Positions 1 to 19,550 of a stretch of DNA of 64,000 nt are shown piece after piece. Each line of letters opens with the position of its first letter. Positions within the stretch are counted from its first letter, which is position 1. The notes under the pieces were generated by a model. It did no database searches, was not told where the DNA came from, and worked only from the letters and a program-made list of their open reading frames with translations. Source of the DNA: Allomuricauda sp. Its GTDB lineage: Bacteria > Bacteroidota > Bacteroidia > Flavobacteriales > Flavobacteriaceae. A program made the position numbers and the translations under genes. Location: the NCBI RefSeq assembly GCF_002699205.1, contig NZ_PABT01000014.1, positions 62,001 to 126,000 of the forward strand, in the 5' to 3' direction.

Positions 1-422
1 TGATCGCCATCGCCTAAATTTTCAAAATCAAAGGTTATGCCTGTATAACCTCTATCCTTAAATGCTTTTTTTAAGGCTTCATAAAACGTGGTGGTTACAA
101 ACTCAAAGGATTTTTCTCGCAACTTTTTTACCTGAGATTTGCTAATTAAGCCGCCATCAAAGCCTAAATACTCCCTGTTTAGGGCCAAGTCTATATCTTC
201 TGAAAACCGTTGTATTAAGTGCCATGCCTTACTTAATGATGTACCTCCCTTAAATAACAGGTGTTCTGCAATGTCCATATCCGAAAAGATAATATCGAGG
301 GTTTGTGTTACCCACCAATCTTTTTCTACAGCAAAATCTTGAATCTTTTTTTGTTTCGCTACTTCTTGAAAAATCAATCGTTTTTCTTCAGCACTTGCTT
401 TATAAAATAATAGACTGCTCAT
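1..422 (-). CDS. abiEii: AbiEii-type nucleotidyltransferase toxin (partial, cut by window edge)
   Basis: This is the N-terminal part (about 140 codons) of an AbiEii/AbiGii-family nucleotidyltransferase, the toxin of the type IV AbiE phage-resistance toxin-antitoxin system. I translated it from the minus strand starting at the ATG at 422-420. The two family hallmarks are visible: KGGTSLSK, and RFSEDIDLAL carrying the paired acidic residues of the DNA polymerase-beta-like active site. The start lies three bases after the stop of the AbiEi-like gene, the usual antitoxin-then-toxin order. In the family, AbiEii is a GTP-binding nucleotidyltransferase that causes growth arrest. The remainder of the protein lies beyond the left edge, so integrity of the C-terminus is unknown. 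Confidence 0.9.
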   Translation of the reverse strand, partial: MSSLLFYKASAEEKRLIFQEVAKQKKIQDFAVEKDWWVTQTLDIIFSDMDIAEHLLFKGGTSLSKAWHLIQRFSEDIDLALNREYLGFDGGLISKSQVKKLREKSFEFVTTTFYEALKKAFKDRGYTGITFDFENLGDGD

Positions 423-425
423 TGA

Positions 426-1022
426 TTATAATGCTTTTGCCATAATTTCTGCTATCCATTGAGGTGCTAACTGCAAATCATGTCTTAAATCTTCAATATT
501 TTCTTGTTTTAAAATTTTTACAATTTTATCTTCCTCGCTTTTGGTTACGCTGTTTTTACCTATTTCCGTTAATGCCAATACTGCCAATTTGCTTATTTTA
601 CCCTTTAGGGCTAACTTTTTGGGGCTAACTTTTTTAAACGTAATATTTCTATTATCTATTTTAATTTTTCGGGCCTTACCGTCGGTGTAGTAAACTACAT
701 TTAATGGTATTTGTTCGCTTAGCCCCAAAGCGTGCATAGCAAAACTGCCTGTTGGGATAATACGTGCCTTATCGCGTTTGGCTATGGCTTGCGCTATATC
801 GTTCAAGCTTGGTAGTACTACTTGGTTTAGTAATTGGCTCGTTTTAGGTTTTACATAGATGCCACTTGCCAACCTGTACAAAACACCTCTTTTTACCAAT
901 CGATATAAAGCTACACGTAGTGCATTGGCATTTGCTATTTGGGCAAAATCTTCTGTAAGGAATATTGTGCCCTCTTCATTATTTTTAATTTGAGCTAGTA
1001 TTTGTTCTTCTATACTCGCCAT
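426..1022 (-). CDS. abiEi: AbiEi-like antitoxin / transcriptional regulator (DUF6088-type)
   Basis: This 198-residue protein is the probable antitoxin of the AbiE pair. Residues 1-60 form a winged-helix module (IEEQILAQI, then LRVALYRLVKRGVLYRLASGIY), typical of AbiEi/DUF6088 proteins, which bind their own promoter. The C-terminal part (ARIIPTGSFAMHALGL onward) is the region known in AbiEi to be needed for toxin neutralisation. It is followed after three bases by the toxin gene, so the two are surely cotranscribed. Repeated CATTACAA boxes lie 19-72 bases upstream of its start and are the probable autoregulatory operator. Family assignment is confident; the exact DUF family name is from memory. 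Confidence 0.85.
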   Translation of the reverse strand: MASIEEQILAQIKNNEEGTIFLTEDFAQIANANALRVALYRLVKRGVLYRLASGIYVKPKTSQLLNQVVLPSLNDIAQAIAKRDKARIIPTGSFAMHALGLSEQIPLNVVYYTDGKARKIKIDNRNITFKKVSPKKLALKGKISKLAVLALTEIGKNSVTKSEEDKIVKILKQENIEDLRHDLQLAPQWIAEIMAKAL

Positions 1023-1040
1023 CTATTTATTTTATATTTT

Positions 1041-1094
1041 TTGTAATGTAAAGTGGTTTCTTTTCATTACAATAATACTTAAAAAACATTACAA
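1041..1094. promoter_or_regulatory. Candidate AbiEi operator (CATTACAA boxes)
   Basis: Three identical 8-mers lie just upstream of the antitoxin start: TTGTAATG at 1041-1048 (inverted) and CATTACAA at 1065-1072 and 1087-1094, the last two spaced by 22 bases. Published AbiE systems are repressed by AbiEi binding to inverted repeats in the promoter, so position and symmetry fit autoregulation. Binding itself is inferred. Confidence 0.55.
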
Positions 1095-1180
1095 AAGCAA
1101 TTTTAACCGCATTAAAGAATTGATTGACTTGTTTTTCGTTTTTTGCAATTGAGGAAGCAAGGAAAAATCGAGCCCATGGA

Positions 1181-1231
1181 AAATGTCTAACCCTATTACC
1201 TAGACATTTTTAGACATTTCCTTAGACATTT
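1181..1231. repeat. Cluster of four TAGACATTT boxes in a 573-bp gene-free gap
   Basis: The stretch 1023-1595 holds no credible gene. Besides the AbiEi boxes it contains AAATGTCTA at 1181-1189 and TAGACATTT at 1201-1209, 1211-1219 and 1223-1231: one inverted and three direct copies of a 9-mer. The spacing of 10 and 12 bases is near one helical turn, which suggests a protein-binding array. Nothing else is evident in the gap. Confidence 0.5.
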
Positions 1232-1595
1232 CTAACGCAGAAATTTCTACATATGAATTTTGTGTTGATGCTAAATTGGTAATCACAAAACAAAAAAAGG
1301 TAAGGCCACAAAACAATAGGAGTTTATAACCTTAACAGACCCCGTGGAGCACTTAAGGGAAAGACACCGCAAAAGATTTAATGTATAAAAACCATATAAT
1401 TCTACTCTTGTGAAAGTTTTTCTTCCATTCATTAAAATTTCTTGGTTAAAATTCGAGTTTATCCCCAAAAAATGGTTGTTTCCTCGAAAAAATACTAAAA
1501 ACTGGATTTATCTGAATACATAAAAAATCAATCAAGAAAAGTATACTCATTTAAATTCATTTTTAAGTTTTGAAAAAATCTTCTCCCATGCTTTT

Positions 1596-4088
1596 TTACA
1601 ACTTAAGGATTTCATTTTTAAACACGTTTTCAAATTTTGGCACATTTTCCACAAAAAAACCATTCATTTTGGGCCAATGAGATTTGTCAAAAAGATTTAC
1701 ATCGTTAAGAACATACTTAATGCGACTCATTTTGTTATCGGGCAATTCTTCCCAGATTAAAGATTTACCAAAACCATCTTCAATTTCCGCTTTTCTACTA
1801 ATTATTTTTTTGAAATACTTTTTGTTCAGCTCTTTATTTGCTGTTGTTATACTAAGCTCAATCTGGCAATGAGAACCAGTAACGACCAAGGAATAATTTA
1901 CTCCTGTTTTTCCGGCACCCATGCTTATCCAATGAGATTTCACAGGATTAACATTTGAAAACTGACCTTTTTCTTGCAATTGGGGCAAAAGTTGCTCCCA
2001 ATATTCTTTACGCACATAAAACCTGTTGCCATGAGAGGAGGCATTATCATATTTGACAATAAGTTCATCTTCCAAATCAAATAAGGACAATAACTTTTTT
2101 AGAATATTGAACTTTGTATTGCTATCGATATTAAACTCGACAAAGTAGCCATTGGTTATTTCCTGGGCACTTCTAAAATCTTCTTTGTTTCTTGTTATTT
2201 TAAGAATATCGTTCCCAAGCAACAGCCCGGTATTTATGGCATATAACTGTTGAAGCACATAATAATACATGTTTGCAATGGCTGATTCTTCAACCTTGTT
2301 GTTCTTGAATATAAAATATTCAAGCTTTTTGTGTGTTGGGGACTCTGCTTCAAAAATAGATTGCTCTACAGCTTCTTCATCTGTCTCTAGTACAACATCA
2401 GGATAACTCCAGATAGTAAGAAACCGTTCGCTGATTAATTTAAACCTGGATTCATAGGAATTGGCGTCCCAAACATCAATTCTTTTTAAATAATCGTTTA
2501 ACCATAACCTACTGTATTTATAACCTTGCTCTCCACCTTGATGATTCATGTTCTTTTTCTCCAAAAAGGTCCTGTTCCCCAATGACCCGTTGTTCCCCGA
2601 CAAGGTTAGGTTTGCCAATGTATTCAAATACTTTTCCTTAAATAGGAAAATTGTTTCCTCATCTAATTGTTTGGACCACTCGGAACTAGGGTTTTGTGGA
2701 AAGATGTGCTCAATCGTGATGCTTTCGCTCGCAGTATCGACATGCTCACGATTATTGTGGTTTTCCAAAAGCTCAAAAAGATAATTCCTGTTTTTTGCTT
2801 TGATATTATAGAGGTCTTTGTCTTTTAAAGCCGCCAGCACGTCTTCATCATCAGGAAAACGTGAATTACCTCTTTTTTTACATAGGGCTTTGGCCAAACT
2901 TTCAAAATAGTCTTCGGTATCTATTTCCGAATACAGGGTCATGAAAATCTTATTCAGTGCATTGGTAGGCAATCCCACTATAAATCTTCGCCAAGCATAA
3001 TTTTGAACCAATTTTAATACGTGAACAACAGTTTCTTCATCTGTAATCCCATTGTCCCAATCTTCAAAAACCTGTAACAAGAATGGATAGGCGACATTCA
3101 CTTCCAATCGGTTGATGTATTCCAGCTCTTTACGAATTTTCGGGTTTTCAACGGTTTCCGGATTGATAAACATTTTATAAAATAGGGAAAGCGCTTTGAT
3201 GTTTTCCAACTCGTTCATGTACTCCTCATCCAGTTTATTGGGGTAGTTCTTTTTAAACTCTTGGTAGACCTTTGATTTATTGGGTATTTTCTTGTTTTTT
3301 AGGGTTAAATAGTCCCTTATGTACTCAGAAACCAACGACTTTTGTTTTATCAAATCCCGGGCATTTTCTTCAATGGGATTCCAAATGGTGTTAAAAACCT
3401 TTTGTTGCTCCCGTGGCTTTAGGTCCATTAGGATATAGTTCCGTATCAAATCGGATTGGGACAGGTCAAGTCCTGTTGAATTGAGACTTTCAAATATCCG
3501 CTGCGGATCATCTTTGTCCCGTTCCAACGAAATTTCGACAAAAATCAACCGTTTCAAACCATTCCTTATTACCTCAAAATTCTCGGCATTGATTCGAGAA
3601 CTGAAAAAAGTATAGTTTTCGATCACATTGGAAAATGAAGCAAACCCTTTTTCATTGCCCTCCATAATGGCCTTGAACGCCATGGAATTAGTGTCGGTCT
3701 GTTTTAGTTTGAGCTTACTATCTTCTTCTTGCACATATTGGTTTACCAAGAACATATTGTAGAGCATCTCGGCCTCTTTTTCCAGTCCATTGTTCTTTGC
3801 AAAACGGAACAAGGCCACATACAGCACATTGATAGTGGTGAGGCGTTGCTGGCCGTCTATAATTACCAGTTCGCGGACTTCACGGGTGGTGTAAGCTCCT
3901 TCGTGTATAAAAACAATGCTGCCTATAAAATGTGTGCCGCGGTCTTCTTTTTCAACACTGATGATATCCTCTAACAATTGTTTGCAATGCCCTAGTTCCC
4001 AATCATAATTGCGTTGGTAAACGGGTATTACAAATTGTACATTAGGTGTCTGTAAAAAATTGATGATGGGTAGTTCGGTGGCTTTCAT
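1596..4088 (-). CDS. GmrSD-like protein: DUF262 + DUF1524 (HNH-like) + DUF4268-like C-terminus
   Basis: This 830-residue protein has the architecture of GmrSD-type, modification-dependent restriction enzymes. The DUF262 (GmrS) domain is at the N-terminus with IPVYQRNYDW (21-30) and the ParB/NTPase-like signature IIDGQQRLTT (76-85). A DUF1524 (GmrD, HNH-type nuclease) domain follows at about residues 440-550, with TIEHIFPQ near 458 and NLTLSGNN further on. The last ~200 residues resemble DUF4268, often attached to defence proteins. Family members cleave DNA bearing modified cytosines in an NTP-dependent way. It starts six bases after the stop of the restriction-modification gene and is the last gene of a four-gene block. 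The family is confident; substrate and defence role are inferred. Confidence 0.85.
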   Translation of the reverse strand: MKATELPIINFLQTPNVQFVIPVYQRNYDWELGHCKQLLEDIISVEKEDRGTHFIGSIVFIHEGAYTTREVRELVIIDGQQRLTTINVLYVALFRFAKNNGLEKEAEMLYNMFLVNQYVQEEDSKLKLKQTDTNSMAFKAIMEGNEKGFASFSNVIENYTFFSSRINAENFEVIRNGLKRLIFVEISLERDKDDPQRIFESLNSTGLDLSQSDLIRNYILMDLKPREQQKVFNTIWNPIEENARDLIKQKSLVSEYIRDYLTLKNKKIPNKSKVYQEFKKNYPNKLDEEYMNELENIKALSLFYKMFINPETVENPKIRKELEYINRLEVNVAYPFLLQVFEDWDNGITDEETVVHVLKLVQNYAWRRFIVGLPTNALNKIFMTLYSEIDTEDYFESLAKALCKKRGNSRFPDDEDVLAALKDKDLYNIKAKNRNYLFELLENHNNREHVDTASESITIEHIFPQNPSSEWSKQLDEETIFLFKEKYLNTLANLTLSGNNGSLGNRTFLEKKNMNHQGGEQGYKYSRLWLNDYLKRIDVWDANSYESRFKLISERFLTIWSYPDVVLETDEEAVEQSIFEAESPTHKKLEYFIFKNNKVEESAIANMYYYVLQQLYAINTGLLLGNDILKITRNKEDFRSAQEITNGYFVEFNIDSNTKFNILKKLLSLFDLEDELIVKYDNASSHGNRFYVRKEYWEQLLPQLQEKGQFSNVNPVKSHWISMGAGKTGVNYSLVVTGSHCQIELSITTANKELNKKYFKKIISRKAEIEDGFGKSLIWEELPDNKMSRIKYVLNDVNLFDKSHWPKMNGFFVENVPKFENVFKNEILKL

Positions 4089-4094
4089 ATCGTT

Positions 4095-7000
4095 TTAGGC
4101 ACTCTCAATAATTGCAATTTCTTCTTCGGTCAACCCATAGAGCTGGTATACTAATTGATCGATTTCGTTTTCTAAGTCGGACACATTTGTAACTTGATTT
4201 TCTTTCTTCAATGAAATAATCTTTCTGGCCAATTCAATAAGTCTATTCTCAATTTCTTTGTTAGGTGGTTTATATGGCAACCTCTTCAATTCATTAACTT
4301 TAATCTTTGGAAACAAATCATCTTCTTCTGAGTAAAATTTTCTAAAGAAAAACCCATAGAGTTTTGAATTAAGAACTGCCAGGAATGAATGTAAATCCGT
4401 TTTGGATTCTTCAAAAGGAACGGCTACGTATAAAGACTGGTCGGCAATAGCATTGGTTTCATCAATTGTACAAATAAATTTGGTGCCGATAATTTGGCGT
4501 ATCAATATTTTAGGTTGGAAAAAATAATGCGAAGCTTTTGGAGACATCAACCAAGGTCCCCATTTAATATATTCATTTGATTGTTTTGAAAAGTATTGCT
4601 GGATATGTTTTCCTTTAAGTTCTGAAAAATATTGATCGGATAGTTTTGTTTTAGAATGATATATTCTGTTTTTAACGTCTTCTTTAGTCAAAGCTTTTCC
4701 TTCTAGGTTTGTTCCATACCCGGCTTGATATGGTTTACAGCCGTTTGAGATATCAAGTAATTCTTCTAGTCTTATTGGATTTCCATTTACTTTCTCCAAA
4801 ATGGATTGAATTTCCGCATTTTCTGAAAAATTAATAATGAGATTATTATCCTTAAACCAACATTTGGGATTGAAGGTGTATTTTAGATTTAGATCATGGC
4901 CAACAATTATTGATTCAAAACCAGGGGTCTTCTTTATTGAAAGTATACATGTTTCAACCTGAGCATCTTCAAAAATCACTTTTTGATTAAAATTGATTAT
5001 CTCAATCGGCTTGAAATTTTTTAGTATTAATTTTCTAACACCGAAAGCATACTTGTTGGATAACCAAGCGTTTGGAATGATATATGAGAGGTTTTTTTCT
5101 TTTCCGAGAATCCCATTTAATGCTAATTCAATGAACAGATAGTAAATTTCTGCATGGCCAATTATACTACTAAATTTTTTTCGGAAATACTCAATTTCCA
5201 AATTGGAAAGATTAACTCCATAGGGCGGATTCCCAATCACCACATCAAATCCAATATAGTCGCCCTCATCATTCAAAACTTCCGGAAACTCAAAGCGCCA
5301 TTCAAAGGCATTTTCATAGATGACATTGTTTACGATTTCCTCTTTTTCCAAGAGGGCTTTTTCGGCTTTTTGTTGTAGTTTTTTAAGAGTGTCCTTATCG
5401 GCTTTGGTTATTTTTTCCCCAAAAGCTTTTAGGTTGTTTTGTCGCTCCTGTTCGTTGATTACTTCACCTTGGGCCTTTTGGAACTTGGCAATAAACTTGT
5501 TGTCCAGGGTGCTTCTAAAATTATTTTTGACCTCGTTGATGATTTGTGAAATTTCGCGCTTTTTTTCTTTTGAGGCCGTGTTTTTATAGTCGGCAACCGC
5601 TTTTTTATAATCCAAAAAGCCATAGGCTATTTTTTTGTCCTTAAAAGCCGCTTTTAGATCATCGTCCAAGGCAAAACGGCTTATCAACGAGTTACCAGTT
5701 TTGATATTGATGTCAATATTGGGCAGCGTTTCCAGCTCGTTATCCCCTTTGTAATAGGCATTTTTGAGCAACTCGATCCATAATCGCAAACGGCATATTT
5801 TAACCGAATTGGGGTTGATGTCCACCCCAAAAAGACAGTTTTCTATCAAGGTTTGCTTTTCATGGAAAAGGGCCATTTGAACCCGTTGACTTTCTTTATT
5901 GCCAGGATGGTACTCAAACAGTTCTTGTTCATCATCGGTTATAACCAATTCATCATTGACGACTTCAACCTCATATTCTTTTAATCGCTTGCCCTCAGCA
6001 TCCTGCAATATTTTAAGGTCGTTCTTAATGGCAATCAACTCATTGAGCGCCGAAACCAAAAAATGGCCAGAGCCCACGGCAGGGTCACAGATTTTTAGGC
6101 TGTTGATGATTGTGTTCGCTTCATTTCTGTCTTCAATCTTGTCATATACATCATCCAGACCTTTACAGTTCCAACCTTTTACCTCATTGAATTTTTGGAC
6201 CACTGCTTTACGAATGGTCTCCCGGCACATATACATGGTGATAAAACCAGGAGTAAAGAACGAACCGTCCTTATAACCATTTATCTTTTCAAAAATGAGC
6301 CCAAGTACCGAGGCATTGATCAGTGTTTTGTTGTCTTCTTGAATATCTTCGGAACCCTCGCTGCTAAAATCATAGGCATCCAAAAATTCAAATAAATATT
6401 CAAGTGTTGAAAGTTCACCCGAACGTTTTTTACCCTTTTCATCTTTTAGTACGGTTGAAGCAATTATGGGTATAGGCTTATCGTCTCTAAGATTGCTTAC
6501 AAATAGGGTATCATGCTCTATGTCAGTTGGTTCAAAAAGTGAAGAGTTCAGGTATGGCACTCTATTAAAAAAGGTTTTGGCTTCCTCATTTCGCTCTTCT
6601 TGTCTTTTTGCCAACACTTGAAAGAAAAGACTATCCAGATCATCATAGTCCTTGATCATTTTTAGATTTAGGAAAGCATAATGTGGATCTCCTTTATGGT
6701 AGCGAATAAGTTGTGCTTCGAGCAGCTTCAGAAAAAGAATCCGATTGACCCAGGTAATGACTAGCTCCAAAGCCACGTTGAACAACCGCTCATCTTTGGT
6801 GTCTCCATATTTTTTGGGATTGGGCAGTCGGCTAATCTTGTCTCGAGTGTCAAGTTGAAGAATGGTGTTCTCCAAAAGGCTTCCTAAGTTTCGTTGTCCT
6901 TCCTCGTTTCGTTGAATTAATTTCTTACTGCCTTTTTTGATTTCCGAAAGCCCTATGATGTGCAATAGCTCGCTGTAAAACTTTTTATCCAGGCTATTGC

Positions 7001-7736
7001 TGTCATTTACAAAAGGTTCTTTTAATAGGTGTTGCGGAGAAAGCACCTTAAAAAGGGCAACAAGTTTCTGGTCATCTTTTGGGTTGTCATTTCGAACTAT
7101 TTTTTCATATTTCCGTAAATCAAAGTACACAAAACTCAAAGACACTTCAAATGCAGACAAATAGGGCTTCGCAATTTCATTGTAGAAGAAATCGGTATTG
7201 GTTCCGGATAAATTTCCAGCTTCAAAATCCTTGAATTGTTTCACCAAAGTTTTGTTGGCCACAAAATTTTTTTCAAAATCATTGGCATCAAAAATGAACC
7301 ATTCAAAAAGGTTCGTGATAATAAGGTTTTTTACCTCTAGGTTGCCTTTGGTAATACGTTCCCTTAAAAAGTATAAGAGCAATTCGTGAAACGCTTTTTT
7401 GTTGAGATTGTCAACAGTTACCATTTCACTTTTGTTCTTTGGGTTTTTGGCCTCGATTATTACCCCCACGGGGCTATCAGGTTTGGGCCCAATATGGATT
7501 ACTTGGTCCTTGCGCCCACTTGTGTTAATGAAATGGTCATTGTGGTAAAGGGAATCTTTCAGGAATCCTGAAACCAGGTTTTTATGATATTCTTCTGATT
7601 CATCCTCATTGGAAAAATCCAAAACCTTAATTAGGTTAGTTTTAAAGAGTTCTATCTCTTCACGGTATGGCTTTACTTTTAAAAAGGCCTTGTTTAATGC
7701 CTTTTTGGGTTTAATTGGTTTGGAAATTGAACTCAT
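4095..7736 (-). CDS. Type IIG (Eco57I-class) restriction-modification enzyme
   Basis: This 1,213-residue single-chain protein appears to combine nuclease, adenine-N6 methyltransferase and target recognition. An N-terminal PD-(D/E)XK-like site is suggested by D77 in GRKDQVIHI and E95-A-K97 in GVIIEAKNPK. The methyltransferase core has motif I DPAVGSGHF near residue 551, GVDINPNSVKICRLRLW after it, and catalytic motif IV GNPPYGV near 834. The last ~300 residues look like a TaqI-type specificity domain (GAGYGTNL-like turn, LNSKLYGFFF). PglX of BREX has a similar methylase core but no such nuclease, and no other BREX gene is present. Three bases separate it from the upstream gene and six from the GmrSD-like gene, so one mRNA is likely. 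Confidence 0.88.
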   Translation of the reverse strand: MSSISKPIKPKKALNKAFLKVKPYREEIELFKTNLIKVLDFSNEDESEEYHKNLVSGFLKDSLYHNDHFINTSGRKDQVIHIGPKPDSPVGVIIEAKNPKNKSEMVTVDNLNKKAFHELLLYFLRERITKGNLEVKNLIITNLFEWFIFDANDFEKNFVANKTLVKQFKDFEAGNLSGTNTDFFYNEIAKPYLSAFEVSLSFVYFDLRKYEKIVRNDNPKDDQKLVALFKVLSPQHLLKEPFVNDSNSLDKKFYSELLHIIGLSEIKKGSKKLIQRNEEGQRNLGSLLENTILQLDTRDKISRLPNPKKYGDTKDERLFNVALELVITWVNRILFLKLLEAQLIRYHKGDPHYAFLNLKMIKDYDDLDSLFFQVLAKRQEERNEEAKTFFNRVPYLNSSLFEPTDIEHDTLFVSNLRDDKPIPIIASTVLKDEKGKKRSGELSTLEYLFEFLDAYDFSSEGSEDIQEDNKTLINASVLGLIFEKINGYKDGSFFTPGFITMYMCRETIRKAVVQKFNEVKGWNCKGLDDVYDKIEDRNEANTIINSLKICDPAVGSGHFLVSALNELIAIKNDLKILQDAEGKRLKEYEVEVVNDELVITDDEQELFEYHPGNKESQRVQMALFHEKQTLIENCLFGVDINPNSVKICRLRLWIELLKNAYYKGDNELETLPNIDINIKTGNSLISRFALDDDLKAAFKDKKIAYGFLDYKKAVADYKNTASKEKKREISQIINEVKNNFRSTLDNKFIAKFQKAQGEVINEQERQNNLKAFGEKITKADKDTLKKLQQKAEKALLEKEEIVNNVIYENAFEWRFEFPEVLNDEGDYIGFDVVIGNPPYGVNLSNLEIEYFRKKFSSIIGHAEIYYLFIELALNGILGKEKNLSYIIPNAWLSNKYAFGVRKLILKNFKPIEIINFNQKVIFEDAQVETCILSIKKTPGFESIIVGHDLNLKYTFNPKCWFKDNNLIINFSENAEIQSILEKVNGNPIRLEELLDISNGCKPYQAGYGTNLEGKALTKEDVKNRIYHSKTKLSDQYFSELKGKHIQQYFSKQSNEYIKWGPWLMSPKASHYFFQPKILIRQIIGTKFICTIDETNAIADQSLYVAVPFEESKTDLHSFLAVLNSKLYGFFFRKFYSEEDDLFPKIKVNELKRLPYKPPNKEIENRLIELARKIISLKKENQVTNVSDLENEIDQLVYQLYGLTEEEIAIIESA

Positions 7737-7739
7737 ATT

Positions 7740-8390
7740 CTATAACTCTTCAAATTTTTTTGAACTTATAACATTGCCCAGTAAGCTATAAGATGCTGCT
7801 GCCGCATTGCGGGCAGAGGGGTGGTAAAAATCAATAACCTTTGAATTTTCATACCTGCCAATAGCGATATTGTATCCACTACTTTTCCATTCAACTGTAT
7901 CAAAAAGCAGGTTTCGTAATTTTTTCCATGTTAAACCGGTAATGATAATTTCAGGATTAATAATTTCTATTTGCTTGAGCAACCACTTTTTGTTTTGCAA
8001 CAAGTGTTTTTCCATTTCAGTGTAATTCGATTGTCCTTTACCACCTATCTTCTTAACATTCATAAAAGCCACATGAAAAATAGCATTTTTAAATCCTTCT
8101 TTGTCATGCCACATTTGTTCATACTCGGGAAAATCGTTTAGTATTCCATAACTCCACTCTGCTAATCGATGGGAAAAGGTGTATTTGAGACCTTCCTTCC
8201 ACCATTCACGGAAATCACCCGCTTCTTGCTTGGGATTGTTGGGTTCCTTGGTCAAAAACAGTATTTTCGTTTTGGCTTTTAAATAGAGGTCTTCGTTGTT
8301 AATTCCGTCTTTTATAAATTTACCTTCGTACTCAGGAACTTCATTTTCCCATTCATCAAATAGTTGGTTTAACTGTTCCGATTTGGTCAT
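7740..8390 (-). CDS. Uracil-DNA-glycosylase-superfamily-like protein
   Basis: This 216-residue soluble protein resembles the uracil-DNA glycosylase fold. The supporting motifs are KILFLTKEPNNPK at 42-54, where UDGs carry the G-x-D/E-P-G water-activating loop; AFMNVKKIGGKG at 108-119; the strand PEIIITG at 146-152; and YHPSAR at 189-194, matching the HPS minor-groove loop. Catalytic residues are not exactly those of classical UDG, so it may act on a modified base other than uracil or be non-catalytic. It sits between the Zn-ribbon nuclease and the restriction-modification gene with three-base gaps on both sides. Its presence in a defence operon suggests recognition or removal of modified phage bases, which is inference. 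Confidence 0.65.
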   Translation of the reverse strand: MTKSEQLNQLFDEWENEVPEYEGKFIKDGINNEDLYLKAKTKILFLTKEPNNPKQEAGDFREWWKEGLKYTFSHRLAEWSYGILNDFPEYEQMWHDKEGFKNAIFHVAFMNVKKIGGKGQSNYTEMEKHLLQNKKWLLKQIEIINPEIIITGLTWKKLRNLLFDTVEWKSSGYNIAIGRYENSKVIDFYHPSARNAAAASYSLLGNVISSKKFEEL

Positions 8391-8393
8391 TTG

Positions 8394-8951
8394 TTAATCA
8401 ACATTTTCAAAAAACTTAGTTGCATATCTGCAATATTCTACAATTAATTTTTTATCAGTTTCAAATTCTTTTCGATTGCCCAACCAGTTTTTACATTTCT
8501 CATGAATTTCTTTCCCTTCCTTCATTTCTGCATAAGAGAGACATTTGATATGCTTTTGGGTAACCAGGACAAAAAGCGCATTTTGAAATGGGTAATCACC
8601 GTACTTATCTACATCCTTAAGTTTTAGAGATCCACTTTTGCGATACTTTACCTCAATAAAGTGGGCTTGGTTGTCTTTAAAAATAACCAAGTCGGGCATC
8701 TGTCGTATATTTTTTGAAACATCTCCACGAACTCCTTTTAATAGGTCGGTAATTCCGGGAATAGAGTTTTCCATGCCATATTTGAAAACTTGGAACCCCA
8801 AGGATTTAAAAAGTTGTTCAACAATTGTTTCAGCGATAATTCCTTTAATTTTACCAGAGACCCAAGGGTTTCCATTTTCTTTTTGGTAACAATCTGTACA
8901 AAGACCATTTTTGAACTTGGTGTATTTACCACATTCTCTGCAATCGGGCAT
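8394..8951 (-). CDS. Zinc-ribbon + PD-(D/E)XK nuclease-like protein
   Basis: I place the start at ATG 8951 (185 residues) rather than the in-frame ATG at 8981, because a perfect inverted repeat and a promoter-like sequence occupy 8966-8982. The N-terminus is a four-cysteine zinc ribbon (C4, C7, C18, C21 in CRECGK...CTDC). A restriction-endonuclease-like core follows: E41 in IAETIVEQLF, D87 in MPDLVIF, and E100-V-K102 in AHFIEVKYRKS, the D...ExK catalytic triad. It is the first gene of the four-gene block and is followed after three bases by the UDG-like gene. It could be a nuclease effector or nicking subunit. The fold assignment is good; its job is inferred from context. Confidence 0.72.
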   Translation of the reverse strand: MPDCRECGKYTKFKNGLCTDCYQKENGNPWVSGKIKGIIAETIVEQLFKSLGFQVFKYGMENSIPGITDLLKGVRGDVSKNIRQMPDLVIFKDNQAHFIEVKYRKSGSLKLKDVDKYGDYPFQNALFVLVTQKHIKCLSYAEMKEGKEIHEKCKNWLGNRKEFETDKKLIVEYCRYATKFFENVD

Positions 8952-8965
8952 ATTTATTTTGAAAG

Positions 8966-8982
8966 TTTGGTAAACTACCAAA
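8966..8982. promoter_or_regulatory. Perfect inverted repeat at the promoter of the defence block
   Basis: TTTGGTA-AAC-TACCAAA occupies 8966-8982, directly upstream of the chosen start of the Zn-ribbon nuclease. Reading the minus strand it overlaps a -7-like TATTTTGG, with an ATTG element 20 bases further upstream, so a bound protein would block transcription. No control-protein gene is adjacent. Confidence 0.5.
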
Positions 8983-9147
8983 ATAGAAATAACGCTTCAC
9001 TTTAACAATTAATAAAGCCACTAATAAGGAAATTTCTTATAACAAATGGAGCGTGGAGAAGACGAAATCAGTTTTGTATTCAAAGTTTTTTTGAATGAAA
9101 CATTCCTTTTTGGAGAACCTTAATTAAAATGGGAGAGTTAAAAAATT

Positions 9148-9831
9148 TTAAGTCGGTCGGACACCCTTTGACATTTGCTCGCTATAGTAATCGTAGTTTC
9201 CTCCATACTTCTTTATAAAGTCTGCTTTAGGAACAAATAGTCCAATCCCATGCTTTGTTCCCATTCCCTCCTTGACCCAGAATAAGGTATCGTCCCCAAA
9301 ATCAATAAAAACAGGCCTCATTGCCTTAGACCAACTCTTTCGGGGGTAATCCCAAATAAATTGTTTTCTTCCTTTATGGTCTTCCGTTTCATCGTGTTTA
9401 AACTTCCAATTAAAATTATAGTTGTCTAGTTCCTTGATATAGAAATTGTGTTTGAAATGAATTCCATTAATTACCCAGATCATGCGTTCGCCATAAAACT
9501 CCTCCCTTTTTCTGATAATGTTCTGTTGGATGGGCGAGTTTTGAAGTTCTATTATAACATCATTTTCGGTCAGTATATCAGCAATGTGCCATTTCTCCTC
9601 CTTTTTGATAACGATCTCCGAATGCTCCTTACCAAAGGTCATTTTCCAACGTAAATGCCAATAGGACTCTGGTTCATACCATGAGTCGCAGTTTTCCGCT
9701 TTGAAGTGAGCCCAATGCCATACATTAACCTCTCCACATTTTGACAATACTCGGCCGCTACAGAGAGGACATTTTCCGTAAGAGTTAGGTTTTGGCTCTA
9801 CTTTCTTATGATTTACTATTGCCCAGAGCAT
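9148..9831 (-). CDS. CoiA-like nuclease family protein
   Basis: This 227-residue protein resembles the competence protein CoiA family. It has an N-terminal zinc-binding knuckle (KCPLCSGR at 20-27, then H39, H42 and C48 in WHWAHFKAENC). A nuclease-like core follows with D85 in HIADILTEND and E95-L-Q97 in VIIELQNS, matching the D...ExQ endonuclease signature of CoiA. Members promote DNA processing during transformation in Firmicutes; in Bacteroidota they often lie in accessory regions with unknown role. It is separated by about 200 bases from the four-gene defence block and is probably transcribed separately. Family call is good, role unknown. Confidence 0.7.
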   Translation of the reverse strand: MLWAIVNHKKVEPKPNSYGKCPLCSGRVLSKCGEVNVWHWAHFKAENCDSWYEPESYWHLRWKMTFGKEHSEIVIKKEEKWHIADILTENDVIIELQNSPIQQNIIRKREEFYGERMIWVINGIHFKHNFYIKELDNYNFNWKFKHDETEDHKGRKQFIWDYPRKSWSKAMRPVFIDFGDDTLFWVKEGMGTKHGIGLFVPKADFIKKYGGNYDYYSEQMSKGVRPT

Positions 9832-10018
9832 ACTTTGCTAGTTTGAACAACAAGATAGTGAATAAGAAATATGGCTTTAAAATAGATTACCTAGCTAACA
9901 AAAACAACTAAAAAACACATATTGTTTACATGTGCCGGAATGGGCTTGATTGAGTAATGGCACTTATTTATCTAGACTCAAATTTCAAATATTTTTTAAT
10001 ATTAGAGTGTTTGGAAAA

Positions 10019-10351
10019 TCAGTTATTTTCCTCCCGATAAAATAGGTTCAAATGGTCCATCAGGGCCTCTTCCCCGACTGGCATCAAACGGTTGGCAATG
10101 GTCATCGCCTGATGGATAAATTCCTCTTCATTCCTGTCCATTACATCGTCAGTACCCAATTCGGGGTTTATTGCCCTCATGGAAAGGTATATCAATGCAC
10201 GAACGGTTAACAATAGATCTGCATGCCCGTCAATATAAAAGAACGTGGGTTGGAACTTGTCCTTGAACCACGGATGGGGAACCAGAGTAGGGGTATGGTC
10301 ATTTGAGTGGTGTTTCAAATCCCTGATAAGCTTCTCTTCGTTCGGATTCAT
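10019..10351 (-). CDS. Hypothetical small helical protein (paralogous module 3)
   Basis: I do not recognise this 110-residue soluble protein. Its middle and C-terminus (LLLTVRALIYLSMRAINPE, then MTIANRLMPVGEEALMDHL) resemble the C-terminus of the HEPN-type gene upstream and the next small gene: a helix rich in L/V, a short acidic linker, then a helix ending in a LLP/LMP turn. It is the last of a minus-strand run, 31 bases after the preceding stop. No catalytic motif or membrane segment is visible. Confidence 0.6.
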   Translation of the reverse strand: MNPNEEKLIRDLKHHSNDHTPTLVPHPWFKDKFQPTFFYIDGHADLLLTVRALIYLSMRAINPELGTDDVMDRNEEEFIHQAMTIANRLMPVGEEALMDHLNLFYREENN

Positions 10352-10382
10352 GGTTTTAATAATATGAGTTTAATTTATTGAA

Positions 10383-10730
10383 TTATTTATTTTCCAGTTC
10401 TAGTAGCTTTTCATCCAATTTGTCTATAAAGTACATTTGGCTATCAGGAAGAATGCAAAGCACCAGTTCTAATACTTGGGTGACACTATCCTCCTTGGAT
10501 GCATATTGGTTGGCAGGGGACAACATCATTCCCTCTCCATCAAGGGCAAAAACACAGACCTCCAAAAGACTGATAATCTGTGTCAAAAGATGGTTGTTGT
10601 CCTTGACCTCGAAGGATACATAGTTTCCATTGGGGTCGATGGACTTATTGTTTCCCAAGAGTCCCGAAAGATTGTTCCTGAGCTGTTGTATCTCTTTCAA
10701 GGTCTTTAACCTTTTCTTCTTTGATTTCAT
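10383..10730 (-). CDS. Hypothetical small helical protein (paralogous module 2)
   Basis: The start is taken as ATG 10730 (115 residues, MKSKKKRLKTLKEIQQL), ten bases after the stop of the upstream gene; a longer reading would run back into that gene. After a basic coiled N-terminus, the segment LLTQIISLLEVCVFALD followed by VTQVLELVLCILPDSQMYFIDKLDEKLL matches the end of the upstream HEPN-type gene (LIKVCITALE...VLGYILDLIPHDEMEFLDKARKLL). The gene therefore looks like a duplicated, shortened version of that C-terminal module. The function is unknown; cotranscription with its neighbours is likely. Confidence 0.6.
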   Translation of the reverse strand: MKSKKKRLKTLKEIQQLRNNLSGLLGNNKSIDPNGNYVSFEVKDNNHLLTQIISLLEVCVFALDGEGMMLSPANQYASKEDSVTQVLELVLCILPDSQMYFIDKLDEKLLELENK

Positions 10731-10740
10731 GTCATTGGAA

Positions 10741-11412
10741 TTATTTGGTTGTGGCGGCCTTTTGTTCTGATAGCAGTTTTCTGGCCTTGTCCAAGAATTC
10801 CATTTCATCATGGGGTATCAAATCCAATATATATCCGAGAACCCCGCTTATATTGTAATGGGGTTGAGGAACGGAACGTGTCGAGAAATTTTCGTTTTCC
10901 AAAGCTGTGATGCAGACCTTGATCAGGTCGGAGATCATAAAGGAGGTTTCTTGGTATCCCTTGGTAATAAGCTCTACGCTATAGAGTCCCTTTTCGGGGA
11001 TATAGGATTTCAAAGCATGGAAATGCATTTTTTCCATTTCCTTCAATTGTTCGAATAGGCATGATTCACCATTGTGTTCAACACTCTTGGTTTCTTTTGG
11101 GAATGCTTTCTCAAAATCCTTTTCAATTCCCTCGATTTGATTGTTGCACTGATCAAGATGCCTTTGAAAAATGGACTCCACTTCTTGGATGAATTCCTTC
11201 ATCTGTGATTGGATGGTCTTGGTCTGCACCTTTGTGATCTCAAACTCATTGCCATAACGGGCAACACTGTAGGCATGTTCCAAAAGGAGCAACAGTTCAT
11301 TGCTTTTCATCTCAGAGGGCTCTATAAAGGGTTGCAGGGAGGGAAAGAACTGTTTGCTATAGTTAATATGGCTGATGATACTGTGGGTCACCATACTCCT
11401 TCCTATGCACAT
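10741..11412 (-). CDS. C-terminal part of a HEPN-like protein (downstream of an in-frame stop)
   Basis: This 223-residue reading frame can start at ATG 11412. It is in the same frame as the gene ending at 11446, and the frame is open from the TAG at 11446-11448 onward (A-F-E-L-S-F-R-F-I-E-Q, then M). The joined sequence reads like a HEPN domain: a helix carrying FNMH-stop-AFELSFRF where relatives have HQAxE, then a TH-containing turn and helical bundle. The last ~60 residues (IKVCITALE...DLIPHDEMEFLD) form the module repeated in the two small downstream genes. It may be translated separately by reinitiation, or be the tail of a broken gene. Confidence 0.55.
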   Translation of the reverse strand: MCIGRSMVTHSIISHINYSKQFFPSLQPFIEPSEMKSNELLLLLEHAYSVARYGNEFEITKVQTKTIQSQMKEFIQEVESIFQRHLDQCNNQIEGIEKDFEKAFPKETKSVEHNGESCLFEQLKEMEKMHFHALKSYIPEKGLYSVELITKGYQETSFMISDLIKVCITALENENFSTRSVPQPHYNISGVLGYILDLIPHDEMEFLDKARKLLSEQKAATTK

Positions 11413-11445
11413 CTGTTCGATGAATCGGAACGAAAGCTCAAAGGC

Positions 11446-11952
11446 CTAATGCATGTTAAAGGTGGCGATGGCATAGTCCCCTTCCTTTATCAGTATGTCC
11501 GCAGTATTGGCAAAGGCATTTACTTTTGCCAATTCCGATTTATGATATCGAATGGCCCTATTGACAAGGGTCTCGTATGCCATTGAGGAATAATCCATGA
11601 TGTTCTCTCCTTGTAAACGAGCAAAAACATTCTCTCCCAGACAGCAATGTTCCAAAAAATAAAGTGCGCCTCTTTCAAGACCTGTTTCAGATTGGGTTTC
11701 TGTATAGACCCTTATCCTGAAATCGGGATGCTTCTTTCCTTTTTTTGTTATAAGGGAGCGGATTTCATTGGGAAGTGGGTCATTGTTGACATCCACAAAA
11801 AGGGTAAGGAAATAATATTCAGTATTGCCCTCCTTCTGCTTTTTGGACAAAAAGGCACTGTCAATGGTTATGATGTTCAGGATGCTGTCGAGTAATTCGG
11901 AAAGCTCTTCCTTTTTTTCAAAGTTTTCCGGTATGTTTGTGTCATGTTTCAT
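11446..11952 (-). CDS. N-terminal part of a HEPN-like protein ending in an in-frame TAG
   Basis: This 168-residue frame looks like the N-terminal half of a two-domain protein: a degenerate nucleotidyltransferase-like alpha/beta domain (YYFLTLFVD, then FRIRVYTETQSE, then RGALYFLEHCCLGENVF) followed by the first HEPN helices (NRAIRYHKSELAKVNAFANTADILIKEGDYAIATFNMH). It stops at TAG 11446-11448 exactly where HEPN proteins of this type have the conserved Q of an HQA-x-E motif, a single C-to-T change from CAG. Nucleotidyltransferase/HEPN proteins in mobile elements are often RNase- or AMPylation-based toxins. The domain assignment is from sequence pattern only. Confidence 0.6.
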   Translation of the reverse strand: MKHDTNIPENFEKKEELSELLDSILNIITIDSAFLSKKQKEGNTEYYFLTLFVDVNNDPLPNEIRSLITKKGKKHPDFRIRVYTETQSETGLERGALYFLEHCCLGENVFARLQGENIMDYSSMAYETLVNRAIRYHKSELAKVNAFANTADILIKEGDYAIATFNMH

Positions 11953-12084
11953 GAAATTGGGGTTTAAAGGGTTCGAGAATCACCAACTATATTAAGGCCA
12001 TGTTCCCAAGTACCCCACCATAGGCACTTGTATTTTATTGAAACTGTTTTGTATTTTACAATCGGATTATTGTACGAAACACCC

Positions 12085-12092
12085 TATATTTG
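12085..12092 (+). promoter_or_regulatory. Bacteroidota -7 element TATATTTG for the XRE regulator
   Basis: TATATTTG matches the TAnnTTTG consensus exactly and ends only four bases before the ATG at 12097, so the transcript is expected to be leaderless or nearly so. I do not see a clear -33 element at normal spacing. Confidence 0.6.
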
Positions 12093-12096
12093 AGAT

Positions 12097-12504
12097 ATGC
12101 AGACAAAGACCAAGAACAACCATATAGGTAGAAAAATCAGCAGGATCAGGGAACTCCGTGGAATGAAACAGGAGACCCTGGCCGAGGAACTGGGCATAAG
12201 TCAACAGGCCGTTTCCAATATTGAGAATAGTGAGAAAGTGGAAGATGTAAAATTGGAGGAGATTGCCAAGGCCTTGGGAGTAACTAAAGAAAGTATTGAG
12301 AATTTCTCTGAAGAAGCAATCTTGAATATTATTGGTAACACTTACCACGTGGATAACTCTTCAGCCGTTAATTATGGCTGCACCTTCAATCCACTGGACA
12401 AGTTGATTGATGCTTATGACGAAAACAAGAAACTCTATGAGCGTCTTGTTCAGGCAGAAAAAGATAAGGTCGCATATTTGGAGAAATTGCTAAAAAGTAA
12501 ATAA
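12097..12504 (+). CDS. XRE-family helix-turn-helix transcriptional regulator
   Basis: This 135-residue protein has an N-terminal Cro/C1-type HTH at about residues 10-65: IGRKISRIRELRGMKQETLA, then LGISQQAVSNIEN, the recognition helix. The C-terminus (KLIDAYDENKKLYERLVQAE to the end) is a predicted coiled coil suited to dimerisation. Similar proteins accompany mobile elements in Bacteroidota. It is transcribed divergently from the HEPN-type operon (145 bases between starts), so it may control that operon. The family is certain; the target is inferred. Confidence 0.85.
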   Translation: MQTKTKNNHIGRKISRIRELRGMKQETLAEELGISQQAVSNIENSEKVEDVKLEEIAKALGVTKESIENFSEEAILNIIGNTYHVDNSSAVNYGCTFNPLDKLIDAYDENKKLYERLVQAEKDKVAYLEKLLKSK

Positions 12505-12852
12505 ACACTTCAAAAAGAAATAAAAAACCTCAATCTCTCATAGGATTAGTTTTTATAATTCAAAGTAGGCCAACAACTTCACATATTGAAATTCCTACAA
12601 TATTTTATTCTCTATGTAACTTTATTTGGCCAGTTTCTAATTTTTAATTGTCTCTAAGAAAGTTTCTGAATAAGTTGATTCAAAACCCATTAACAACGGT
12701 AAATTCTTATTGTCGATTCCGATTTCAATGTTTTTTCACCACTATCACACTCTTTGGAAAAGGATTATAAAATAAATCCACAAGCTAATCAGATTAATAC
12801 ACTTTTAACTTAATGAACATGAAAAATATTTCACTTATAAGTAAAATACAGT
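12505..12852. other. Gene-free AT-rich spacer with a short palindrome
   Basis: I see no gene in this roughly 350-base stretch. At its right end, ACTTATAAGT (12833-12842) is a perfect 10-base palindrome just upstream of the toxin-operon -7 element, a possible operator for the XRE antitoxin. Confidence 0.4.
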
Positions 12853-12860
12853 TATATTTG
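12853..12860 (+). promoter_or_regulatory. -7 element TATATTTG of the toxin-antitoxin-chaperone operon
   Basis: An exact TAnnTTTG match ends eight bases before the toxin ATG at 12869, again implying almost no leader. The palindrome at 12833-12842 lies just upstream. Confidence 0.6.
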
Positions 12861-12868
12861 CAAGCCAT

Positions 12869-13375
12869 ATGTTTTCGGAATGTCAATTGATAAAAATACC
12901 ACAACTCAGCGGCCCAATGGGTTCTGTATACACTATACTGGTTGATGGGGAGGAGAGTACCGCATTCAGAAATTTTGTAACAAACAATAATGATTCATTT
13001 AAAAGTGAAATAAAAGACATTGTTGGACGTTTAAAAACTATGGGGTTTAAAACAGGAATGAGAGAAGATTTTTTCAAACTTTATGAAGGAAATCCTGGAG
13101 ACGGTGTGTGTGCCCTTTATGACGAAGAAGACAGTAATTTAAGATTATATTGTATTCGCTATGGCTCTCAAATCATAATACTCGGTGGTGGCGGTCACAA
13201 ACCAAAATCTATTAGAGCTTTCCAAGAAGATAAAAATTTAAAGAAACAAAATTTTATCTTAAGAGACTTATCAAAACTTATTACCCAAAAAATGCAAGAT
13301 AAAGAAATTTGGTTTAGTGAAGATGGCTTAGATTTTGAAGGCGACTTAACAATTGAAAACATTTACTATGAATAA
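12869..13375 (+). CDS. RelE/HigB-superfamily toxin of a TAC-like operon
   Basis: This 168-residue protein has the core of phage Gp49/HigB-like RelE-fold toxins: FFKLYEGNPGDGVCALYD, then NLRLYCIRYGSQIIILGGGGHKPKS, the strand pair and K/R-rich end typical of ribosome-dependent mRNA endonucleases. It is longer than usual (about 100 residues), with an extra C-terminal helix and tail. The toxin-first order is HigBA-like, and the downstream XRE gene overlaps its end by eight bases. The third gene is SecB-like, making this a toxin-antitoxin-chaperone arrangement. Superfamily good; mRNA cleavage is inferred. Confidence 0.7.
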   Translation: MFSECQLIKIPQLSGPMGSVYTILVDGEESTAFRNFVTNNNDSFKSEIKDIVGRLKTMGFKTGMREDFFKLYEGNPGDGVCALYDEEDSNLRLYCIRYGSQIIILGGGGHKPKSIRAFQEDKNLKKQNFILRDLSKLITQKMQDKEIWFSEDGLDFEGDLTIENIYYE

Positions 13376-13799
13376 ATCAGCAGAAGAAAATTTTGATTTT
13401 ATAGATGATATTTTAGAGGAAATATCACCTGTAGAAATGAAAAAAATAGAACAACGCATGCTTAATTCGGAGAAAATCCGTAAAGCAATGGATGCTAAAA
13501 AATGGAATAATACCAAGCTACTAGAAGCCTTGAATATGAAAAGCCCAAGCATTATAACTAAATGGTTAAGTGGCACTCATAATTTTACTCAGGACACCTT
13601 AGTAGAAATTGGAGATGTTTTAGGAATTAACTTCTTCGAAACAAAGGAGCAAAAGATTACGATTGAATTTAATTTTCCTGTAATGGAAAATAAAACAAGT
13701 GGATTTGATTCTTTCAGTAGTCTGGATTATATTTTGAATTCTCATCAAATCAATTTATCAAGTTCCCCGAACAATAATTGTACAGAATACCAAGCTTAA
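13368..13799 (+). CDS. XRE/HigA-like antitoxin with C-terminal extension
   Basis: I choose ATG 13368 (143 residues, MNKSAEENFDF), which overlaps the toxin stop by eight bases, rather than the upstream TTG at 13353. An HTH spans about residues 38-85 (RKAMDAKKWNNTKLLEALN, then SPSIITKWLSG, then TLVEIGDVLGI). The remaining ~50 residues (ITIEFNFPVMENKTSGFDSF to the end) are probably disordered. In described TAC systems such a tail is the chaperone-addiction region bound by SecB-like protein, making antitoxin stability depend on the chaperone. The gene for that chaperone starts three bases downstream. Confidence 0.75.
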   Translation: MNKSAEENFDFIDDILEEISPVEMKKIEQRMLNSEKIRKAMDAKKWNNTKLLEALNMKSPSIITKWLSGTHNFTQDTLVEIGDVLGINFFETKEQKITIEFNFPVMENKTSGFDSFSSLDYILNSHQINLSSSPNNNCTEYQA

Positions 13800-13802
13800 A
13801 TT

Positions 13803-14225
13803 ATGTCTGAAGAAAAACAATTCAATTTTCAAATAAAAGGAATTGAAATCCTTGACACTAGTATTGTAAGACCAAAGAGCAGAATTGATGGCAACACAGT
13901 ATTTGGGTTTGAATTGCAAGCACAACACAGCTTTAATTTAGAAAGAGAGTTGGTAATAGTAACTTGTAATGTTGAAGTATTAGACAACAATTCTAAAGAT
14001 AAATTAGGTCACGTTAATGCCAGTTGCTTATATTATGTTGAAAATTTTGAACAATATTTTGACAAAGAAAAAAACACCTCAAACTTACCTCAAGATGTAA
14101 TCACAATGTTGAACTCAATTTCCATTTCAACTATTAGAGGTGTTATGTATGGAATTTTTAGAGGAACATTCTTGAATGGTGCTATCCTACCTATTGTGAA
14201 TCCTAACATGCAAATAAAAAAGTAA
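13803..14225 (+). CDS. SecB-like chaperone of a toxin-antitoxin-chaperone operon
   Basis: This 140-residue protein has the layout of SecB-like chaperones: an N-terminal strand FNFQIKGIEILDTSIV, alternating long beta-strands (VFGFELQAQHSFN, LVIVTCNVEVLD, VNASCLYYVENFEQYF), then a C-terminal helix with SISTIRGVMYGIFRGTF and the end ILPIVNPN, comparable to the R-x-x-i...lPpinl end of SecB. It is third in the toxin/XRE/chaperone operon, three bases after the antitoxin. In Mycobacterium the SecB-like Rv1957 controls the HigBA-like pair in the same way. It is not likely to be the housekeeping SecB. The fold call rests on pattern, not on a search. Confidence 0.62.
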   Translation: MSEEKQFNFQIKGIEILDTSIVRPKSRIDGNTVFGFELQAQHSFNLERELVIVTCNVEVLDNNSKDKLGHVNASCLYYVENFEQYFDKEKNTSNLPQDVITMLNSISISTIRGVMYGIFRGTFLNGAILPIVNPNMQIKK

Positions 14226-14373
14226 AGCTTTAATTCCTACAACACTACGCTGACATTTTTGAAAATGTTAGAGATGTAAGCACTCTTAACCATTACATAT
14301 TAAAACCAAGCTATTTAAAAGTGGAACAATAATAGCCCCAAATCTTACCCCCAACTTTTGCGCATGGATCCTG

Positions 14374-14421
14374 TCGGGTTTTTGTAGCGTTCCGGTAGAA
14401 AAGCGTGAAGCAAAAACCCGA
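14374..14421. repeat. Long inverted repeat downstream of the relaxase gene
   Basis: TCGGGTTTTTG (14374-14384) and CAAAAACCCGA (14411-14421) are perfect 11-base arms around a 26-base loop. It lies 26 bases past the relaxase stop, so it could be its terminator, but the absence of a T-run and its place in a mobilization module also allow a nic/oriT or recombination role. Confidence 0.5.
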
Positions 14422-14446
14422 TAGGGAGCAACCTACTTCTTGGATT

Positions 14447-15469: not shown

Positions 15470-16059
15470 TAGCGTTGTTTTAATTGGTATCTCAGGCTTT
15501 CAAAATCCCCAATCCCCATATTGATCTTTAGATATGGTTTTCCCATCATTGGCTCCACCTTCTCAACTTTGTTGAGGATTTCATTGCAGTGCTCCTTATA
15601 ATCTTTGAATTCTTGTAGCATTCTGTCGTGCTCTGTTTTCGGAACGGTATTCCTTGGCTCCAGAAAATCCATTCGCTCTTCCTGTAACTTAACGGGTTCA
15701 CGTTTAGGTTTCCTTCCATCCTTTACATAGGCCTCGTAAAGAATGAGCATCATTTCATAGGTCGGCCGGATACTGGTTTTTTCCATGTTCTTGATAATGG
15801 CGATGATCCTATCAAATTTTTTCATCATCTGACGCTCCAATTTTTTGATACTGTCAAGGATAATCTTTGTTCCCTCCCCAAAAGGGTCAAGTTGGTTCTC
15901 CTTGAAGTAGCGTATCATTCCATCCAAAACCTCACTATGCGATTTGCTGAACTTTTTGGAATAGTTGCGAAAACGTGTGGCCGTTTCTTTCTTTACGGTG
16001 ATGTTGGAATAACCGCCGGTTCCTTTCTTTGTTCTGCCGTTTGCTTTTTTCTTTTCCAT
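15469..16059 (-). CDS. bfmA: BfmA/BtgA-family mobilization protein
   Basis: This 196-residue protein is the relaxosome accessory component that binds oriT next to the relaxase. It shows a basic N-terminus (MEKKKANGRTKKGTGGYSNI), then a ribbon-helix-helix-like segment (VKKETATRFRNYSKKFSKSHSEVLDGMIRYFK) typical of BfmA/BtgA. A coiled helix (IKKLERQMMKKFDRIIAIIKNME) and a conserved ending (LKINMGIGDFESLRY) follow. It precedes and overlaps the relaxase gene by one base. The repeat-rich gap upstream (16060-16345) is the natural candidate for its binding site. Confidence 0.85.
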   Translation of the reverse strand: MEKKKANGRTKKGTGGYSNITVKKETATRFRNYSKKFSKSHSEVLDGMIRYFKENQLDPFGEGTKIILDSIKKLERQMMKKFDRIIAIIKNMEKTSIRPTYEMMLILYEAYVKDGRKPKREPVKLQEERMDFLEPRNTVPKTEHDRMLQEFKDYKEHCNEILNKVEKVEPMMGKPYLKINMGIGDFESLRYQLKQR

Positions 16060-16075
16060 AGGTGTGATTTTGTTT

Positions 16076-16306: not shown

Positions 16307-16345
16307 CCCAAATACTGCACATTAAGTGCATAGGCATTAATAAAT

Positions 16346-16639: not shown

Positions 16640-16796
16640 AACTTTTGATTTTTGGAATTAGAGAATATGTAAACGGCCGCCTACTTTTTTGTACACGACA
16701 AACATATATCACCTGATGCAAGTGAAAAATAGAGAATTGAAGATTGCGCTTTAATTGCTTTTTGTTTTCGGGGTTGGAACAAAAAATCTATAATAA

Positions 16797-18982: not shown

Positions 18983-19041
18983 CGCATTTTGCGGATGCAA
19001 TATTAGTGTTTATTTTTCTTCAGCGCAAGGTTTTACTGCTT

Positions 19042-19546: not shown

Positions 19547-19550
19547 CACT

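Follow-up and report, generated by a model that had tools for sequence, protein, structure and literature searches.

A row of four minus-strand genes in the marine bacterium Allomuricauda sp. (RefSeq assembly GCF_002699205.1, contig NZ_PABT01000014.1) is, judged by its sequence, probably a modular defence cassette: a two-gene header, comprising a nuclease (NUC) and a uracil-DNA glycosylase (UDG)-like protein, precedes an exchangeable restriction payload, the whole being carried on a putative integrative mobilizable element. The window in which it lies, that is, the whole stretch of DNA analysed here, spans 64,000 nucleotides (forward-strand positions 62,001–126,000 of the contig), and coordinates refer to it unless another locus is named. 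The four open reading frames (ORFs) occupy 1596–4088, 4095–7736, 7740–8390 and 8394–8951, all on the minus strand with gaps of 6, 3 and 3 bases, confirming the compact layout of the original prediction. The family names given there (nuclease, UDG-like, type IIG and GmrSD) are likewise correct, as judged by domain and PADLOC matches.

What did not survive is the idea of one fixed four-part system: the type IIG enzyme (IIG), GmrSD and NUC are each found without the others, and partner genes are replaced at three related loci (L003, L004 and L010). Relatives share the first genes but differ in the restriction enzymes behind them, which argues for modular assembly and against one new four-part machine. 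Read directly from the sequence are a header-first layout, differing payloads, a step in divergence, a replaced IIG specificity end and an element bounded by an attachment (att) repeat. The new part looks to be the recurrent header with exchangeable restriction payloads, a variant of the mobile defence cassette; a literature search, with most subscription papers outside its reach, found no title or abstract describing such a header.

Header loci and their payloads

UDG lies directly behind NUC, with a gap of 0–3 bases, in five non-redundant lineages (the window, L001/L002, L003, L004 and L010), with UDG identities of 72–89% outside the window. Payloads differ between them. The window and L002 carry IIG plus GmrSD (L001 and L002 have 2 differences across the four genes, and their GmrSD is 95% identical to that of the window); L003 has IIG, Mrr and DUF3800, GmrSD being replaced; L004 has an MmeI-type enzyme, an OLD-family ATPase, a UvrD helicase and DUF2130; and L010 has Mrr with the type I set HsdM/HsdS/HsdR. 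The OLD-family ATPase and UvrD helicase of L004 we take to be Gabija-like. GmrSD was not found at the L003, L004 and L010 loci. The full row occurs in two independent lineages only, the window and L001/L002, so the four families do co-occur elsewhere. At other loci NUC stands first with no UDG behind it and is followed by a split IIG-like set (L070), type III genes (L071, L075), type I genes (L073) or an Mrr remnant (L062). Restriction types led by the NUC clade are thus I, IIG, IIL, III and Mrr.

A restriction gene comes next after NUC at 9 of 13 close loci when scored by script (UDG skipped, gap to the restriction gene ≤ 60 bases), and at 10 of 13 once L073 is added by hand, its next gene being a type I methylase by PADLOC (3.9e-270) that local BLAST missed; for other ORFs at these loci the count is 2/176. 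Dropped as duplicates were L001 (a near-copy of L002), L010 (taken as L140), L063 (= L004) and L133/L134 (= L002/L003); L139, whose contig ends 271 bases behind NUC, and L141 (38%) were left out, and L068 has no NUC ORF. More distant NUC relatives behave differently: by the same rule, restriction genes follow 0/9 long-form family members (1 by PADLOC) and 0/17 class-level loci, the latter being those assessed among 20 retrieved from 24 places outside the window's genome (L120–L122 have no called NUC ORF). Among the long-form members, L077 has a type I methylase by PADLOC (1e-268) at a gap of 52; HsdR stands at a gap of 65 in L078, slightly above the limit. In L113, HsdR is placed one gene further along. 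In the tree, 12 rows (not counting the decayed L080) form a NUC clade (support 100/98) with 10 restriction headers; the members of this clade have a short gap between Zn-ribbon and core, save L075 and L140, in which no ribbon was read.

DNA matches through NUC end at 8382 (L062, L071), 8390 (L073), 8394 (L072, L074, L075) and 8395 (L070), all seven within 12 bases of the last base of NUC, 8394. Near the end of UDG (7740), matches stop at 7783 in L063 and at 7704 in L140. In L133 and L134, the match breaks inside IIG at 5220 and resumes at 4176 and 4181, respectively, with a 32-bp patch in L133; this marks a C-terminal specificity part of IIG (4180–5220, minus strand) that is replaced between relatives, in agreement with its nonsynonymous divergence (pN). 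A match that continues through GmrSD is confined, among these loci, to the L001/L133 lineage.

Synonymous divergence (pS) from L002 is 0.78–0.81 for NUC (depending on the start chosen) and 0.65 for UDG, then 0.37 for IIG codons 1–830 and 0.34 for GmrSD, rising to 0.70 (pN 0.42) for IIG beyond codon 830; 15 chromosomal genes beside the element give 0.55–0.85. The comparison with L003 yields 0.71–0.74 for NUC, 0.66 for UDG, 0.34 for IIG codons 1–830 and 0.48–0.77 for chromosomal genes. The step from L002 therefore falls at the UDG/IIG border, with the header in the chromosomal range. Between strains, divergence is much lower in the payload than in the header; header and IIG/GmrSD hence have different histories, and payloads appear to have been exchanged relative to the header. 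The simplest reading is that the payload moved and the header stayed, a direction that we infer; part of the element backbone is of low divergence too.

Several observations concern neighbouring genes at these loci. In L062 (6732–7318), what comes immediately behind NUC is an Mrr 3′ remnant and then, as in L003, DUF3800; a deletion has apparently removed UDG, IIG and the greater part of Mrr. Upstream of the window's header lies a CoiA-like gene (9148–9831, minus strand; CoiA_N 5.6e-8), included in a DNA match from 9869 to 8394 with L072; there (9055–10539), CoiA-like gene and NUC are arranged as in the window with UDG missing, and the convergent downstream gene is related to the gene behind the EVE-AAA gene of L070. 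The upstream neighbours of NUC in L004 (7761–9316) and L001 (6160–7748) are instead a helix-turn-helix (HTH)-peptidase M78 gene and a PIN-like gene. A promoter scan of 8300–9300 gave 2 sigma-70-like sites against 3.1 in shuffles, using models that do not cover Bacteroidota promoters, and no RNA families besides transfer RNA (tRNA) were found in window 1–20000.

The encoded proteins

NUC (8394–8951, minus strand) is a 185-residue protein with an N-terminal Zn-ribbon and a PD-(D/E)XK nuclease core of probable Hjc fold. The domain scan returned weak PD-(D/E)XK matches (Pfam Hjc at just 0.02), and a sequence-profile search against solved structures gave chance-level ribosomal-protein matches alone (best 0.0097). 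The catalytic residues E41, P86–D87 and E100-V-K102 are nevertheless invariant in 27/27 rows of the NUC alignment (A2: the window plus 26 of 120 listed homologues, 261 having been found). The folds nearest to the NUC model are Holliday-junction resolvases and the homing endonuclease I-Ssp6803I. Unlike the archaeal Hjc and I-Ssp6803I, NUC is bacterial, bears an N-terminal Zn-ribbon and leads restriction loci. Matches (E ≤ 0.001, some weak or partial, the window's genome counted) occur in 11/71 genus, 12/397 family and 23/395 class genomes. Searches of 72,556 records of plasmids and 50,697 of phages yielded none, which lends no support to a spread on sequenced plasmids or phages.

The UDG-like protein (7740–8390, minus strand; 216 residues) belongs by fold to the uracil-DNA glycosylase superfamily, with a UDG domain match below the cut-off, no PADLOC match at 0.05 and, in the sequence-profile search against solved structures, weak UDG matches alone (best 0.0096). 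In UDG families 4 and 5, four cysteines bind a 4Fe–4S cluster. The window protein contains no cysteine and there is none in the invariant or near-invariant columns of 33 rows (alignment A1: 33 of 120 listed homologues, 158 having been found), setting it apart from both families. Ka/Ks values are 0.05 and 0.04. A search with the alignment found no match in viral contigs; plasmid records contain two weak matches to the protein (29% and 31%). A pattern scan with the alignment over one genome per species (84,980 species) found 27 loci, among which L018 has no anchor ORF in the distant-UDG group; close proteins such as P0004, P0005, P0007 and P0008 (77–84%) lie outside the context comparison. Two distant members hint that some distant UDG-likes belong to defence loci: in L008 a type I methylase-like gene lies 171 bases behind the UDG-like gene, and in L012 a ResIII helicase gene lies 30 bases behind it.

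IIG (4095–7736, minus strand; 1,213 residues) has the architecture DUF7149-DUF7814-Eco57I-TaqI_C. With an Eco57I-type methyltransferase (5.2e-31) and a target-recognition domain (TaqI_C, 5.3e-24) in one chain, and a PADLOC match to REase_MTase_IIG (3.5e-244), it is a type IIG enzyme resembling other Eco57I-like members; only its neighbours are unusual. The N-terminal part matches DUF7149 and DUF7814 only, and the nuclease activity of the chain is predicted from the family. Relatives (E ≤ 1e-100) are found in 4/71 genus genomes, as 5 copies of which 4 stand behind UDG, and in 14/397 family genomes. Outside the cassette, NUC, UDG and GmrSD adjoin IIG in 0/11 inspected loci, namely those of 10 of the 14 family genomes besides the window, plus L132 (G423, G445 and G381 left out); contigs L132, L164 and L166 end soon behind IIG, and several large neighbours are without identity. 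One genome with the full cassette has a second IIG gene, 56% identical (G062:C55, 1275–4871; L131, L132).

GmrSD (1596–4088, minus strand; 830 residues) combines GmrSD_N (9.4e-34) and GmrSD_C (8.6e-18), the GmrS (DUF262) and GmrD (DUF1524) parts of this type IV nuclease family, with a C-terminal DUF4268. It matches the PADLOC models Orf5 and HEC-06; HEC-06 is described as GmrSD-like in the cited passages of PMC11411939, and those of PMC4619093 record DUF4268 as a known extra domain of the family. Relatives (E ≤ 1e-50) occur in 6/71 genus genomes, half of them (3) within the cassette; of the 3 outside it, L174 (with an inner stop) and L175 were inspected and the G058 copy was left out. Their neighbours, genes with weak similarity to IIG, are in keeping with the company that GmrSD genes keep in restriction loci according to the cited part of PMC4619093.

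The carrier element

The cassette lies within ~21.6 kb bounded by 43-bp direct repeats (window 1–18950 plus L142 17336–20000). One repeat copy is the 3′ part of a tRNA-Met gene (18908–18982, minus strand; 2 differences); the other starts at L142 17336, ~2.7 kb beyond the left edge of the window, and has a tyrosine integrase gene (Phage_integrase 2.9e-18) as its neighbour. A relaxase-like gene at 14447–15469 (minus strand) matches DUF5712 (1.5e-106), its Relaxase match (0.013) being below the cut-off. Integrase, att repeat at tRNA-Met and relaxase-like gene mark the carrier as a putative integrative mobilizable element, and its tRNA-Met flank recurs beside the cassettes of L001/L133, L134 and L062. 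A 401-residue gene by tRNA-Met was considered as the integrase and rejected: the window copy (19949–21154) matches FtsX/MacB_PCD, and the integrase lies left of the window.

The element also contains an AbiEi-like gene (DUF6088; 426–1022, minus strand), followed by a 336-residue ORF across the window edge, and a small gene at 12869–13375 that matches the PADLOC candidate PDC-M64B (7.9e-43), adjoins an HTH gene and is possibly a further defence module. Elsewhere in the window, a 4,724-residue SprB-repeat protein with a type IX secretion signal (46821–60995), encoded between PorP/SprF-like genes, looks like an ordinary gliding-type adhesin.

Alternative readings and implications

By family, IIG most likely methylates host DNA and restricts unmodified foreign DNA, and GmrSD-DUF4268 most likely cuts DNA carrying modified bases. 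The UDG-like protein may, like Brig1 and Brig3, remove a modified or non-canonical base; the partner of Brig3 is the glucosyl hydrolase BapA, the neighbour here being a nuclease. The Brig3–BapA pair, in the cited passages of PMC13160076, is an example of a UDG-superfamily defence enzyme with a partner in its operon. NUC would act on branched, nicked or abasic DNA, and the four enzymes would be additive rather than form one obligate complex. The originally proposed attack on both unmodified (IIG) and modified (GmrSD) DNA is plausible given published precedents, even as its setting in a fixed four-gene row falls away. In Vibrio cholerae, VPI-2 carries a type I restriction-modification system with an embedded GmrSD-like TgvAB, and BREX occurs with BrxU; in both, as in the window, a methylation-based system accompanies a GmrSD-family type IV enzyme, with a proposed cover of unmodified and modified phages (cited passages of PMC11411939). 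The window differs from these described cases in that the partner is a one-chain IIG, GmrSD follows rather than interrupts it, and a NUC–UDG header precedes both.

Were the row one coherent system, all four proteins would jointly restrict unmodified and modified phage DNA. The gaps of 3, 3 and 6 bases and the same row in a second lineage (L001/L002) speak for this, as do the similar pS values of the IIG body and GmrSD (0.37 and 0.34), on which ground these two may have travelled together, and a 56-bp GmrSD match behind the L070 header. The exchanged partners at three loci, the absence of adjoining partners at all 11 other IIG loci and the divergence step between UDG and IIG weigh more heavily; an obligate four-gene system is rejected on the last two, and we regard even a coherent one as very unlikely. 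NUC and UDG might instead form a two-gene base-excision restriction unit, in which abasic sites created by UDG in modified phage DNA are cut by NUC, with the payloads as mere neighbours in a defence hot spot. Since NUC leads five restriction loci without UDG (L062, L070, L071, L073 and L075), UDG is not its constant partner; the DNA examined around more distant UDG-likes showed no NUC, and we consider this unit unlikely. It is also distinctly unlikely that NUC is no defence enzyme at all and instead a resolvase- or homing-like nuclease of the mobile element that drives cargo exchange by recombination. Its nearest folds, the change of cargo directly behind it and the divergence step behind the header would all suit such a role, but function does not follow from fold alone, the close 5′ placement of NUC ahead of restriction genes points to co-expression, and the more distant relatives (0/17 at class level) lack such cargo.

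The modular cassette, which we prefer, has points to answer as well. At three of the 13 close loci (L072, L074, L080), NUC has no restriction gene behind it, L062 is counted solely through an overlapping Mrr remnant, and the restriction-modification reference set was drawn partly from the loci being counted. The header label changes 6 times on the whole NUC tree (as few in 2/500 shuffles), so that the header role is clustered but not of single origin, having been gained or lost repeatedly. Distant UDG-likes adjoin restriction genes in 1/19 cases; because such proximity is rare, the UDG family need not be defensive. The structural model of NUC is of moderate quality (pLDDT 78), and the score of influenza PA (~8) comes close to that of Hjc (9.7). 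Synonymous sites of NUC are close to saturation, and four other element genes also have low or lower pS to L002 (0.34, 0.43, 0.56 and 0.65), so that low divergence extends beyond the payload. Links between the parts appear elsewhere too: class-level L123 combines a NUC relative (32%) with an IIG relative (54%) two genes upstream, both inspected GmrSD relatives outside the cassette are near weakly IIG-similar genes (64 and 40 bits), and the 56-bp match in L070 (4701–4756, 82%) is to the start of GmrSD and lies behind a payload gene, possibly as a GmrSD remnant behind another header.

A tentative and on the whole doubtful extension of the modular cassette casts NUC, whether accompanied by UDG or not, as a general-purpose header for mobile restriction cassettes. 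It would serve type I, IIG, IIL, III and Mrr payloads alike, acting either as a common processing enzyme that enhances the next restriction enzyme or as a resolvase- or homing-like nuclease that promotes payload swap behind it. Further payloads can be sought simply through the NUC clade. Should modified or branched DNA prove to be the substrate of NUC or of the UDG-like protein, unlike restriction types would have an accessory enzyme in common. If the header stays while restriction types swap, this would help to account for the renewal of immune cargo on mobile elements; and if the header is indeed a general one, the element would change its immune weapon and keep its header.

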